Part shown: piece by piece, positions 30,049-52,391 of the stretch | Position numbering within the stretch: position 1 is the first letter of the stretch | Layout: every line of letters starts with the position of its first letter | NCBI RefSeq assembly: GCF_014284195.1 | Contig: NZ_JACOGC010000001.1 | Location: 372,001 to 436,000 of the forward strand | Length of the DNA: 64,000 bases | Source: Cognatundibacterium griseum | GTDB taxonomy: Bacteria; Pseudomonadota; Gammaproteobacteria; Burkholderiales; Burkholderiaceae_D | Reading direction: 5' to 3' | Translations under genes and position numbers: made by a program | The notes under the pieces: generated by a model | Seen by the model: the letters and a program-made list of their open reading frames with translations, nothing else | What the model was told of the DNA's origin: nothing | Database searches by the model: none

Positions 30049-30074
30049 CTTGAAATGGCTGACAGACGCCATAT
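30049..30074 (+). promoter_or_regulatory. Sigma-32-type heat-shock promoter of ibpA
   Basis: CTTGAAA at 30049-30055 matches the sigma-32 -35 element exactly. CGCCATAT at 30067-30074 matches the -10 consensus CCCCATnT in all but one position. The spacer is 11 bases, within the known range. Transcription would begin near 30080, just before the first leader hairpin. Confidence 0.65.
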
Positions 30075-30081
30075 CTCTGAG

Positions 30082-30142
30082 CCACAGATGCTCAACGGAG
30101 GTCTGTGGAAACCATTTATATCGCTTCTATTTAAAAGGATAT
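30082..30142 (+). promoter_or_regulatory. ROSE-like RNA thermometer in the ibpA leader
   Basis: Two hairpins fill the predicted leader. The first has stem CCACAGA (30082-30088) with TCTGTGG (30102-30108). The second folds TATCGCTT (30119-30126) onto AAAGGATA (30135-30141 region): TCGCT at 30121-30125 pairs with the Shine-Dalgarno AGGA at 30136-30139 with the G at 30123 bulged. UYGCU opposite AGGA is the hallmark of ROSE elements, which open on heating to allow translation of small heat-shock proteins. Confidence 0.65.
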
Positions 30143-30146
30143 CACC

Positions 30147-30611
30147 ATGCGTAATTTTGACTTTGCTCCCCTGTACCGTTCCGCAATCGGCTTTGACCGT
30201 CTGGCGCAATTATTTGACGATGCCCAGCGCAACGAGGCCACACCGAGCTATCCGCCTTACAACATCGAACTGATTGCAGAAGACAAATACGCGATCACGA
30301 TGGCCGTCGCCGGTTTTGAACGCAGTGAACTGGAGATCGAAACTGAACGCGACATGCTGAAGGTCGCCGGTCGCCGCCAGAAAGAAGAAGGTCAGCGCAA
30401 TTACCTGCACCGTGGCATTGCCTCACGCGATTTTGAACACCGCTTCCGTCTCGCCGATCATGTGCGGGTCATGGCGGCGCGCCTCGGCAATGGCTTGCTG
30501 ACGATAGAGCTGGTACGCGAAATCCCTGAAGCCTACAAACCACGCCGCATTCTGATTGACGGCGAAAATCTGCAACTGGTGCAGCAGGCTGAGCAGCAAC
30601 AGGCAGCATAA
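30147..30611 (+). CDS. ibpA: Small heat-shock protein, IbpA type (Hsp20)
   Basis: 154 residues. The N-terminus MRNFDFAPLYRSAIGFDRL is nearly that of E. coli IbpA. The alpha-crystallin domain runs from about YPPYNIELI to LLTIELVREIPEAYKPRRI and includes the family-typical YLHRGIASRDFEHRF. It binds aggregating proteins during heat stress. A Gln/Glu-rich tail (QLVQQAEQQQAA) ends it. AAGGA lies seven bases before ATG and is predicted to be masked by a thermometer hairpin; a sigma-32-like promoter sits upstream. Confidence 0.93.
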   Translation: MRNFDFAPLYRSAIGFDRLAQLFDDAQRNEATPSYPPYNIELIAEDKYAITMAVAGFERSELEIETERDMLKVAGRRQKEEGQRNYLHRGIASRDFEHRFRLADHVRVMAARLGNGLLTIELVREIPEAYKPRRILIDGENLQLVQQAEQQQAA

Positions 30612-48898: not shown

Positions 48899-49471
48899 TT
48901 ATAAAAAACGTTCACCGATCCCCAGCAGGACCAGCAGGCCGAGCACCGCAAAAACAGCGGACGCGATCCAGCGTACCAGGCGGAACGGGAAATTGGGGGC
49001 GGCAATTTTTCCGAGAAAAACAGCTGGTACGTCAGCAATCAGCATACCGAGCGTGGTGCCGGCGATGACCATGCCGAGATTGCTGTACTTGGCTGCCAGC
49101 GCAACGGTTGCCAGCTGGGTCTTGTCGCCGATTTCCGCGATGAAGAAAGTCACGCAGGTCAGCGCAAAGACGCCGTAATGGCTGTCGTTCAGACCCTCAT
49201 CTTCCATTTCATCCGGCTTCAGCGTCCAGGCGGCAATCGCCAGAAATGACAGACCCAGCGCCCAGCGCAGAATGTCTGCCGGAATGTGGTGCGCCACCCA
49301 TTGTCCGAGCAGTCCGGCCAGCGCATGATTGGCCAGCGTCGCGCACAGGATTCCGAGAATGATCGGGGCGGGTTTTTTGTAACGTGCTGCCAGCAGCAAT
49401 GCCAGCAATTGTGTTTTATCACCGATTTCGCCAATAGTGATAGCCAGGGCAGAGACGAGGAAAGCTTCCAT
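48899..49471 (-). CDS. TMEM165/GDT1 family transporter, probable manganese exporter
   Basis: 190 residues, about six membrane segments, with the family's two EIGDKTQ motifs: ITIGEIGDKTQLLALLLAARY at the N-terminus (in part) and FIAEIGDKTQLATVALAAKY in the second half. Bacterial members (MneA/YebN-like in function) export Mn(II). The preceding leader is a yybP-ykoY manganese riboswitch, which strongly supports this. Start 49471 gives the expected N-terminus MEAFLVSALAITIGE. It is the first gene of a set with arsC and a hypothetical gene. Confidence 0.9.
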   Translation of the reverse strand: MEAFLVSALAITIGEIGDKTQLLALLLAARYKKPAPIILGILCATLANHALAGLLGQWVAHHIPADILRWALGLSFLAIAAWTLKPDEMEDEGLNDSHYGVFALTCVTFFIAEIGDKTQLATVALAAKYSNLGMVIAGTTLGMLIADVPAVFLGKIAAPNFPFRLVRWIASAVFAVLGLLVLLGIGERFL

Positions 49472-49545
49472 AATGATGTGTGCGGGATCGGACGGTATTA
49501 ACCAATGACAGTGACATTCCGTCCGATCCCTCGTAACAGAAATGG

Positions 49546-49669
49546 CACTATCAAAGGTCTTGCCAGACTCTGCACATGCATGCACAGCCAATCGCACCAT
49601 GACCTGCGGTCAAGTATGTTGATGCGATTTCCCCGGATAGCCAGGGCAGGCTACTCCCCAATGAAAGTG
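49546..49669 (-). promoter_or_regulatory. yybP-ykoY manganese riboswitch
   Basis: On the minus strand the leader has the hallmark GGGGAGTAGCC (49648-49658 region), then ATCAACATACTTGACC (49611-49626 region) and the 3' AGACCTTTG (49550-49560 region). The closing stem pairs CACTTTCA (49662-49669) with TGATAGTG (49546-49553), one mismatch. These are the conserved blocks of the Mn(II)-sensing yybP-ykoY class. It controls the GDT1-type exporter start 74 bases downstream. Confidence 0.9.
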
Positions 49670-49676
49670 AGCGCGA

Positions 49677-50649: not shown

Positions 50650-50664
50650 TCGGGGTTCCCTGCG

Positions 50665-50750
50665 GAGAGGTGGCCGAGTGGTTAATGGCAGCAGACTGTA
50701 AATCTGCCCTCTTACGAGTACGCTGGTTCGAATCCAGCCCTCTCCACCAG
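50665..50750 (+). tRNA. tRNA-Tyr (GTA)
   Basis: 86 bases with encoded CCA. Acceptor GGAGAGG pairs with CCTCTCC. Anticodon GTA lies at 50699-50701. A long variable arm fits the class II tyrosine tRNA, and the T arm is GGTTCGAATCC. Confidence 0.95.
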
Positions 50751-50787
50751 GTAAGAATTTAGTAATGCGGCTGAAGTGGTGGCCCTT

Positions 50788-50861
50788 GCGGGTGTAGCTC
50801 AATGGTAGAGCCGAAGCCTTCCAAGCTTAAGACGAGGGTTCGATTCCCTTCACCCGCTCCA
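50788..50861 (+). tRNA. tRNA-Gly (TCC)
   Basis: 74 bases with encoded CCA. Acceptor GCGGGTG pairs with CACCCGC. The anticodon loop CTTCCAA gives TCC at 50820-50822. The base of the anticodon stem has a G-A mismatch, the other four pairs are intact. Confidence 0.94.
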
Positions 50862-50894
50862 GTATTTGCGTGGCTTTTTTTGTGCAAACAAGCT

Positions 50895-50969
<75 letters not shown>

Positions 50970-51046
50970 TGTGAATCTGGTGTTTCAAGTCTGAAGTCGT
51001 CGGGCGTGTGCCTGAGTATTCTCATCAAAATCGTTAGGAGTTCAAA

Positions 51047-52237
51047 ATGGCAAAAGGTAAGTTCGAGCGCACCAAGCCGCACGTCAACGTCGGAACAATT
51101 GGTCACGTTGATCACGGCAAAACGACACTGACAGCAGCGATTGCAACAGTCTTGTCCGCAAAATTCGGCGGCGAAGCGAAGAAATACGACGAAATCGACG
51201 CAGCACCAGAAGAAAAAGCACGTGGTATCACCATTAACACAGCCCACGTCGAATATGAAACAGCAAGCCGCCACTACGCCCACGTTGACTGCCCAGGCCA
51301 CGCCGACTATGTGAAAAACATGATCACTGGTGCAGCGCAGATGGACGGCGCGATCCTGGTTTGCTCCGCAGCAGACGGCCCAATGCCACAAACACGCGAG
51401 CACATCCTGCTGGCGCGTCAGGTTGGCGTTCCATACATCATCGTCTTCCTGAACAAATGCGACATGGTTGACGACGCAGAATTGCTGGAACTGGTCGAAA
51501 TGGAAGTGCGCGAATTACTGTCCAAATACGAATTCCCAGGCGACGACCTGCCAATCATCCAGGGTTCCGCCAAACTGGCGCTGGAAGGCGACAAAGGCCC
51601 GCTGGGCGAAGAAGCCATCATGAAACTGGCCGACGCACTCGACAACTACATCCCGACACCAGAGCGTGCAGTTGACGGCACATTCCTGCTGCCAGTGGAA
51701 GACGTCTTCTCCATCTCCGGTCGCGGTACAGTCGTTACCGGTCGTGTAGAGCGCGGCATCATCAAAGTCGGCGAAGAAATCGAAATCGTTGGTATCAAAG
51801 ACACAGTCAAAACAACCTGTACCGGCGTTGAAATGTTCCGCAAACTGCTGGACCAGGGGCAGGCAGGCGACAACGTCGGCGTTCTGCTGCGCGGTACCAA
51901 GCGCGAAGACATCCAGCGTGGTCAGGTGCTGGCAAAACCAGGTTCGATCAAACCGCACGCCCATTTCACAGGCGAAATCTACGTCCTGTCGAAAGACGAA
52001 GGCGGTCGTCACACACCATTCTTCAACAACTACCGTCCACAATTCTACTTCCGTACCACGGACGTGACTGGTTCGATCGAGTTGCCGAAGGATAAAGAAA
52101 TGGTGATGCCAGGCGACAACGTCTCGATCACAGTAAAGCTGATCAACCCGATCGCGATGGAAGAAGGTCTGCGCTTCGCGATTCGTGAAGGTGGCCGTAC
52201 TGTTGGTGCGGGTGTGGTTGCTAAAATTATCGAGTAA
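51047..52237 (+). CDS. tuf: Elongation factor Tu
   Basis: 396 residues. G-domain motifs [19 protein letters not shown] and NKCDMVDD, the switch I segment [14 protein letters not shown], then the two beta-barrel domains. It carries aminoacyl-tRNA to the ribosome. TAGGAG precedes the ATG. It sits in the usual place after tRNA-Thr and before tRNA-Trp; a second copy is expected in the str operon elsewhere. Threonine and proline codons are mostly ACA and CCA, unlike the ribosomal protein genes that follow. Confidence 0.98.
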
Positions 52238-52264
52238 TAGAAGTTTGTAAGCTGCCATTCAAAT

Positions 52265-52289
52265 ACGGCGATCTGTTCTGGATCGCCGT
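52265..52289 (+). other. Hairpin between tuf and tRNA-Trp
   Basis: Perfect 9-base inverted repeat ACGGCGATC (52265-52273) and GATCGCCGT (52281-52289), not followed by a T-run. It may be a weak attenuator or a processing site releasing the tuf message from tRNA-Trp. Confidence 0.5.
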
Positions 52290-52315
52290 GATAATTTGAG
52301 TAGTTTCAAAGATGT

Positions 52316-52391
52316 AGGGGTGTAGCTCAATTGGCAGAGCGACGGTCTCCAAAACCGTAGGCTGGGGGTTCGATTCCCTCCGCCCCTGCCA
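52316..52391 (+). tRNA. tRNA-Trp (CCA)
   Basis: 76 bases with encoded CCA end. Acceptor AGGGGTG pairs with CGCCCCT (one G-T pair). The anticodon arm ACGGT-CTCCAAA-ACCGT gives CCA. Its position between tuf and secE is conserved in this group. Confidence 0.95.

Follow-up and report, generated by a model that had tools for sequence, protein, structure and literature searches.

The leader in front of the ibpA-type gene in the window (the whole stretch of 64,000 nucleotides of DNA that was analysed) is, in all probability, a short, two-hairpin RNA thermometer of the ROSE type which is transcribed from a sigma-32-type promoter and controls ibpA in Undibacterium. A preliminary description had proposed such a promoter and thermometer in front of ibpA and this is still the best reading, being supported by the sequence motif, the HSP20 gene, the relatives and our covariance model R3. 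What we observe here are the sequences, the predicted structures, their conservation, the covariation of the first hairpin (hairpin I), the repetition of its core and the geometry of the leader. The two-hairpin form of ROSE has been known since 2013 from Pseudomonas (PMC3669281) and the Undibacterium leader adds a member to it. Hairpin I repeats the core of the sensor in hairpin II: a pyrimidine (Y) pairs with G, the following G is bulged and the next C pairs with G.

Promoter, leader and gene

The gene (30147–30611, + strand, with its ATG at 30147) encodes an ibpA-type small heat-shock protein of 154 amino acids (Pfam HSP20, PF00011, E 3.3e-18), for which the nearest named record is from Undibacterium oligocarboniphilum (97% identity, 145 residues). 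A thymidine kinase gene (PF00265; 29372–29923, − strand) is divergent from ibpA and a gene for an FMN-dependent dehydrogenase (PF01070; 30790–31947, − strand) lies downstream. Elsewhere in the window Rfam detected a manganese (yybP-ykoY) riboswitch (49565–49671, − strand, 71.6 bits); behind it is an open reading frame of 233 residues (48899–49600, − strand), whose listed start overlaps the riboswitch and whose product, read by eye, looks like a membrane transporter. The window also contains four tRNA genes (50664–52388, + strand).

The −35 element CTTGAAA (30049–30055, + strand) and the −10 element CGCCATAT (30067–30074, + strand) are read directly from the sequence, with the 11-base spacing that had been described. 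The −35 element is also found in the relatives. Both elements agree with the sigma-32 consensus CTTGAA-N(13–18)-CNCCATAT as quoted in PMC3669281, but CTTGAA and the −10 octamer are 12 bases apart, one below the quoted range. This spacing is shared with five other Undibacterium leaders: among the 25 of 38 leaders of this genus with a −10 octamer recognised by pattern it is 12 in 6, 14 in 7 and 15 in 12. The promoter pattern CTTGAAA-N(10–14)-CNNCATNT, which was picked after the site had been seen, matches once in the window versus 0.08 matches expected and is present in 8 of 100 shuffles; in the whole genome there are 8 matches versus 1 for the pattern read backwards. One of the other matches is located 93 bases 5′ of an open reading frame that by eye reads as HtpG. 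Downstream of the remaining six no heat-shock gene was recognised, and for two of these six no open reading frame of 80 residues begins in the next 300 bases. From the sequence we infer that CTTGAAA and CGCCATAT would be used by sigma-32.

With its start placed from the promoter position the leader would comprise about 65–68 bases (30079–30146, + strand). The preliminary description gave about 65 bases and spoke of a shortened thermometer, but the two-hairpin form is not a new shortened type, as it was described in 2013 for Pseudomonas ibpA, where the leader has 61–62 bases (PMC3669281). The two hairpins said to follow the promoter are both present in the predicted minimum-energy structure. 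Hairpin I (30082–30108, + strand) is a stable 5′ hairpin made up of CCACAGAU, the bulged G30090, CUC, the loop AACG, GAG and GUCUGUGG, with U-G(bulged)-C-U-C standing opposite GAGG. Hairpin II (30118–30142, + strand), the putative thermosensor, consists of AUAUC, the bulged G30123, CUU, an 8-base loop and AAGGAUAU. Here UCGCU (30121–30125) pairs with the Shine-Dalgarno sequence AGGA (30136–30139, + strand), which is also found in the relatives and is located 7 bases from the ATG; as had been noticed, this pairing leaves a single bulged G, namely G30123.

The protein is matched in 39 of 43 Undibacterium genomes, the window's own included. We compared 38 leaders, leaving out one genome (G027) with a 39-residue fragment, and could align both hairpins in all 38, with hairpin I of three leaders (L095, L098 and L105) placed by hand. 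In Undibacterium pigrum and relatives (L085–L089 and L091) the spacer between the hairpins has grown to about 73–100 bases with both cores kept. For hairpin I 99.0% of the cells are paired and both sides have changed in five of the nine pairs, a level reached in 0 of 500 shuffles; in slid registers 26 to 48% of the cells are paired. Because the leaders were placed by the core motif, a more independent test is offered by the three outer pairs, in which 105 of 105 cells are paired, 8 of them with double changes.

The core of hairpin II does not vary within Undibacterium (38 of 38 leaders). Covariation at the TCGCT/AGGA pairing, which had been put forward as a check, is therefore silent either way in the genus, while variation is seen in the wider set of 125 leaders: 100 of them have C and 25 have U as Y, other bases being excluded by how the leaders were parsed. 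At the pair next to Y, otherwise A-U, 3 of 124 leaders have G-C and 9 have no pairing. For the second pair outward the 62 far leaders have U-A (20), C-G (14), U-G (9) or A opposite G (12), so that the outer pairs of hairpin II vary in the wider sets, mispairs included. The hairpin II motif is missing in one (L261) of 60 further leaders from the phylum.

The covariance model R3 was built from 18 leaders, among them the window's sequence; L133 and L137 had been removed since they were misaligned in hairpin II. From the leaders in general L121 (contig end) and L132 (start not found) were dropped. We searched 399 genomes of the order, which we take to be Burkholderiales; 38 of them have the protein (E up to 1e-20). 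R3 matches 29 of the 399 at E up to 0.01. Twenty-five of the 399 genomes match at E under 1e-4, all at the start of ibpA, and 12 of these 25 had supplied sequences to the model. The other four matches (E 0.001 to 0.006) are away from ibpA starts and look like chance. In the window's genome R3 finds one strong element (E 2.7e-16), the next having an E of 0.17, and the second Hsp20 gene of this genome is absent among the matches.

The folding energy of the leader is ordinary (z = −0.81; 44 of 200 shuffles fold equally well) and we dropped it as evidence for structure. It would suit a reading in which the hairpins are secondary structure that arose by chance, with the promoter or another constraint behind the conservation. 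This is scarcely credible, however, in view of the compensatory changes in hairpin I, the invariant Shine-Dalgarno-masking core, the location of all 25 strong model matches at ibpA starts and the fact that the same architecture is functional elsewhere (PMC3669281).

Assignment to the ROSE class

The leader of the window has a U(U/C)GCU motif which is imperfectly paired with the Shine-Dalgarno sequence with one bulged G, it is directly followed by a small heat-shock gene (HSP20, 7 bases between AGGA and ATG), and it falls within the range of two to four hairpins with the Shine-Dalgarno sequence in the 3′-most one. These are features of a ROSE element. A search with the Rfam ROSE models, proposed as a check in the preliminary description, found nothing either in the leader region at E up to 10 or in the window at the gathering threshold. 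The models gave no match at E up to 5 in 18 near relatives either (one of them, L019, with only 37 leader bases). In 20 further relatives, which are alpha- and gammaproteobacterial records with the exception of one titled Rhodoferax, there are sub-threshold ROSE or ROSE_2 matches in 4 and none in 16, on which the models fail too. The leaders of these 20 relatives have a UYGCU-type motif before the Shine-Dalgarno sequence. As relatives that share this motif are missed by the ROSE models too, we take the miss in the window to reflect narrow models and dropped Rfam as arbiter of the class: a match is the usual test of ROSE and no defining feature of it.

The closest known system is the short ROSE-like leader of Pseudomonas ibpA, which likewise has a sigma-32 promoter, two hairpins, the pairing of U(U/C)GCU with the Shine-Dalgarno sequence in hairpin II and a stable hairpin I (PMC3669281). 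It differs in that the host here is Undibacterium, that the core of hairpin II is flanked by A-U and U-A and not by G-C, and that our leader is known from its sequence. Experiments have shown this architecture to act as a thermometer in Pseudomonas putida and P. aeruginosa (PMC3669281). The classical ROSE elements (RF00435 and RF01832) share the masking core with its bulged G; unlike the leader here, which does not match them at E up to 10, they have three to four hairpins (PMC3669281). The ROSE-like and ROSE-G elements before ABC transporter genes have a UYGCU-type motif with a bulged G against the Shine-Dalgarno sequence and the hosts of the ROSE-like set include betaproteobacteria, but the genes are others, and ROSE-G has CUGCU with a bulged G that faces another bulged G in the Shine-Dalgarno sequence (PMC11342760, PMC12857270).

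Folding the leader across temperatures was a further check that had been suggested. Hairpin II alone weakens from a predicted −5.3 kcal/mol at 25 °C to −2.1 kcal/mol at 42 °C, and hairpin I is predicted to remain closed over this range. The mean unpaired fraction of the Shine-Dalgarno sequence, however, increases only from 0.02 at 25 °C to 0.11 at 42 °C and 0.25 at 50 °C; the energy model thus weakens the masking helix and predicts little opening. As the opening is so small, the case for a heat response of hairpin II comes from what is known of this architecture in P. putida and P. aeruginosa, where the second hairpin melts and the first does not (PMC3669281).

On this reading sigma-32 would raise the transcription of ibpA upon heat shock. 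As long as the temperature is low, hairpin II would mask the Shine-Dalgarno sequence by the UCGCU/AGGA pairing, which the bulged G would weaken, and at heat-shock temperature it would open and allow translation of ibpA. Hairpin I, a stable module at the 5′ end, would have no part in temperature sensing. The conservation of its bulged-G core, which copies that of the sensor, would have some other reason, most probably that a protein recognises it; the candidate protein is IbpA itself, the repressor of its own mRNA in Escherichia coli.

The bulged-G core in hairpin I

We searched the leaders 5′ of hairpin II with a strict finder that asks for the core and four outer pairs. The strict core is present in 36 of 38 Undibacterium leaders, in 20 of 24 leaders from other genera of the order, in 45 of 62 from further relatives and in that of E. 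coli K-12 ibpA, which makes 102 of 125 in total. Set to a bulged base other than G, the finder detects A in 0, C in 1 and U in 8 leaders. In the 62 far leaders 40 cores were observed versus 1.5 in shuffles, the count being 40, 45 or 47 depending on the stretch scanned. Sixty further leaders from the phylum, taken mainly from the top of the unfetched phylum-wide matches, have the strict core in 48 cases versus 3.3 expected, at least two cores in 17 and another bulged base 5 times. Among the fetched phylum loci the core is present in 14 of 21 parsed leaders, two of which look misparsed, 6 of 27 loci without a start having been left out. Over all loci, leaders included, the strict core with G has a frequency of 0.53 per kb, equivalent to about 0.07 in 125 bases, and that with the other bulged bases one of 0.11–0.16 per kb, which makes the G-core the most frequent in the rest of the loci as well. 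The strict finder overlooks variants such as L098 and may list another hairpin first (L127, L136 and L184, there 154 bases upstream).

We also made a count in which no core is assumed. For this we folded 182 distinct leaders as stretches of 95 bases ending just 5′ of hairpin II, some of which take in DNA upstream of the transcript and some of which cut off hairpin I, and counted the single-base bulges. On the 5′ arm 216 of 265 bulges are G (A 23, C 13, U 13), versus 10.9 bulged G in shuffles and 12.5 per 182 in random 95-base stretches of the same loci; on the 3′ arm there are 4 G, 14 A, 12 C and 14 U. At least one 5′-arm bulged G is found in 151 of the 182 leaders versus 10.6 in shuffles, namely in 30 of 37 from Undibacterium, 15 of 23 from other genera, 58 of 62 far ones, 47 of 59 from the phylum and E. 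coli. The leaders are akin to one another, so that these bulges are not independent events. In 147 of the 216 cases the bulged G has exactly the flanks of the sensor, Y-G below and C-G above; in 28 it has U below and U-A above, like the middle hairpin of the longer forms. A looser pairing scan agrees with this: of 125 leaders 119 have a 5′-arm bulged G, versus 34 with A, 18 with C and 23 with U. The class of hairpins with a bulge between two U is not G-specific: in the 38 Undibacterium leaders the bulged base is G in 1 and another base in 23.

Some leaders have more than one copy upstream. Two strict cores precede hairpin II in nine leaders (L186, L194, L195, L196, L200, L237, L251, L257 and L263), in which three hairpins may share the core. 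The E. coli K-12 ibpA leader (L147) has the strict core in its first hairpin and another hairpin with a G bulged between two U. The consensus of RF00435 already shows a bulged G in the first hairpin, and the repeat is thus implicit in a public model. We found the repeated core in no title or abstract in our literature search; as the founding ROSE work was beyond reach and an earlier notice is possible, we claim no priority.

Possible functions of hairpin I

The role of the upstream ROSE hairpins is described in PMC3669281 as not fully understood, a contribution to mRNA stability being proposed. The geometry of the leaders bears on this question. Of 36 Undibacterium leaders, 33 have a distance of 41–43 bases from the −35 element to the bulge of hairpin I; the remaining three, with 32–33 bases, are those in which a later CTTG was taken, with CTTGAAA further upstream. 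The distance is 41 to 44 in all 19 leaders from other genera of the order with both elements recognised, and 29 to 47 with a median of 43 in 36 far leaders. From hairpin I to hairpin II, on the other hand, there are 27 to 100 bases in Undibacterium, 24 to 54 in the other genera and 27 to 125 in the far leaders. Hairpin II is 24 to 28 bases from the ATG in all 38 Undibacterium leaders, 15 to 34 in the other genera and 19 to 41 in the far set, where some starts are possibly misplaced. The near-fixed distance to the promoter together with the variable distance to hairpin II implies that hairpin I is tied to the promoter or the 5′ end.

Such a position would be expected if hairpin I were a mere 5′-terminal stabiliser which slows mRNA decay, in which case any stable hairpin would suffice and the core would be incidental. 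This is a serious possibility, though somewhat short of an even one, and stabilisation is what the authors of PMC3669281 proposed. A plain stabiliser, however, has no need of a bulged G, and the bulge is specific in the 182 leaders, mostly with the flanks of the sensor core. A protein which recognises the shared core would explain both the 5′ position and the specific bulged G, whereas a stabiliser explains the position only. We therefore suggest that hairpin I may be a dock for a protein, perhaps IbpA.

For IbpA itself there are several supporting points. It represses its own translation via the 5′ UTR, for which R93 is needed, and it appears to bind RNAs with structure, thermometers among them (PMC10474464). 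The target would be the same here, the 5′ UTR of ibpA, and of the residues Y34 and R93, which are tied to mRNA binding in E. coli IbpA (PMC10474464), the window's protein has both equivalents, with H and R at positions 97 and 98. Self-repression was demonstrated in gammaproteobacteria and would be a candidate mechanism in Undibacterium. If an IbpA oligomer gripped both hairpins by their common core, the strict core would be expected 5′ of hairpin II, as is seen in most of the 125 leaders, the one from E. coli among them, and of the 60 from the phylum. In addition the only protein with Q at the R93 position belongs to a leader (L139) that has no strict core, no match to R3 and no ROSE hairpin in its predicted fold.

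Other observations speak against such a dock. The available part of PMC10474464 reports no mapped binding site, L139 is a single case in which a UUGCU/AGGA pairing can still be drawn, and Undibacterium has H at the position of R97. Of 121 proteins with a residue at the R93 position, 120 have R there, strict core or not, and 19 of 21 proteins with leaders lacking the strict core keep it. A link between R93 and hairpin I was rejected, since these 21 proteins (19 R, one Q, one gap) are not discriminated from the 104 others (101 R and three gaps). Against a protein dock in general, thermoregulation in E. coli persists in Pseudomonas constructs that lack hairpin I (PMC3669281). In P. aeruginosa, however, breaking four G-C pairs of hairpin I led to derepression at 25 °C, which the authors ascribe to a disturbed overall structure (PMC3669281). 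On balance we consider a docking site for IbpA in hairpin I possible but rather doubtful. L139 is a leader from the order, and the six further genomes of its genus all match R3 at their ibpA; in its predicted fold the Shine-Dalgarno sequence is buried in a different structure.

The 3′ arm of hairpin I contains the Shine-Dalgarno-like sequence GGAGG (30097–30101), and hairpin I could in principle be a decoy or a standby site for the ribosome. GAGG is retained in 36 of 38 Undibacterium hairpins I, with GGGG in L095 and L098, but in many relatives the arm is GGGUCC or GGGCCC, which does not resemble a Shine-Dalgarno sequence. The likeness is thus not retained and we regard such a role as very improbable.

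Extending the proposed protein dock to all ROSE leaders, we put forward, as a tentative idea that may well prove wrong, that they are arrays in which one module is repeated, namely a hairpin whose 5′ arm has just one bulged G, mostly flanked by Y-G and C-G. The last copy alone would mask the Shine-Dalgarno sequence, and the upstream copies, the first of which would be tied to the 5′ end, would dock a protein, most likely IbpA, that represses its own mRNA.

Our analysis places ibpA thermometers in Undibacterium and in part of its order, where they are unseen by the Rfam models. With a bulged G whose core is repeated and keeps nearly the same distance from the promoter, the role of the upstream hairpin becomes testable at a single base, also in the ibpA leader of E. 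coli K-12. If the proposed array of modules is true, one RNA motif would read both the temperature and the level of free chaperone.
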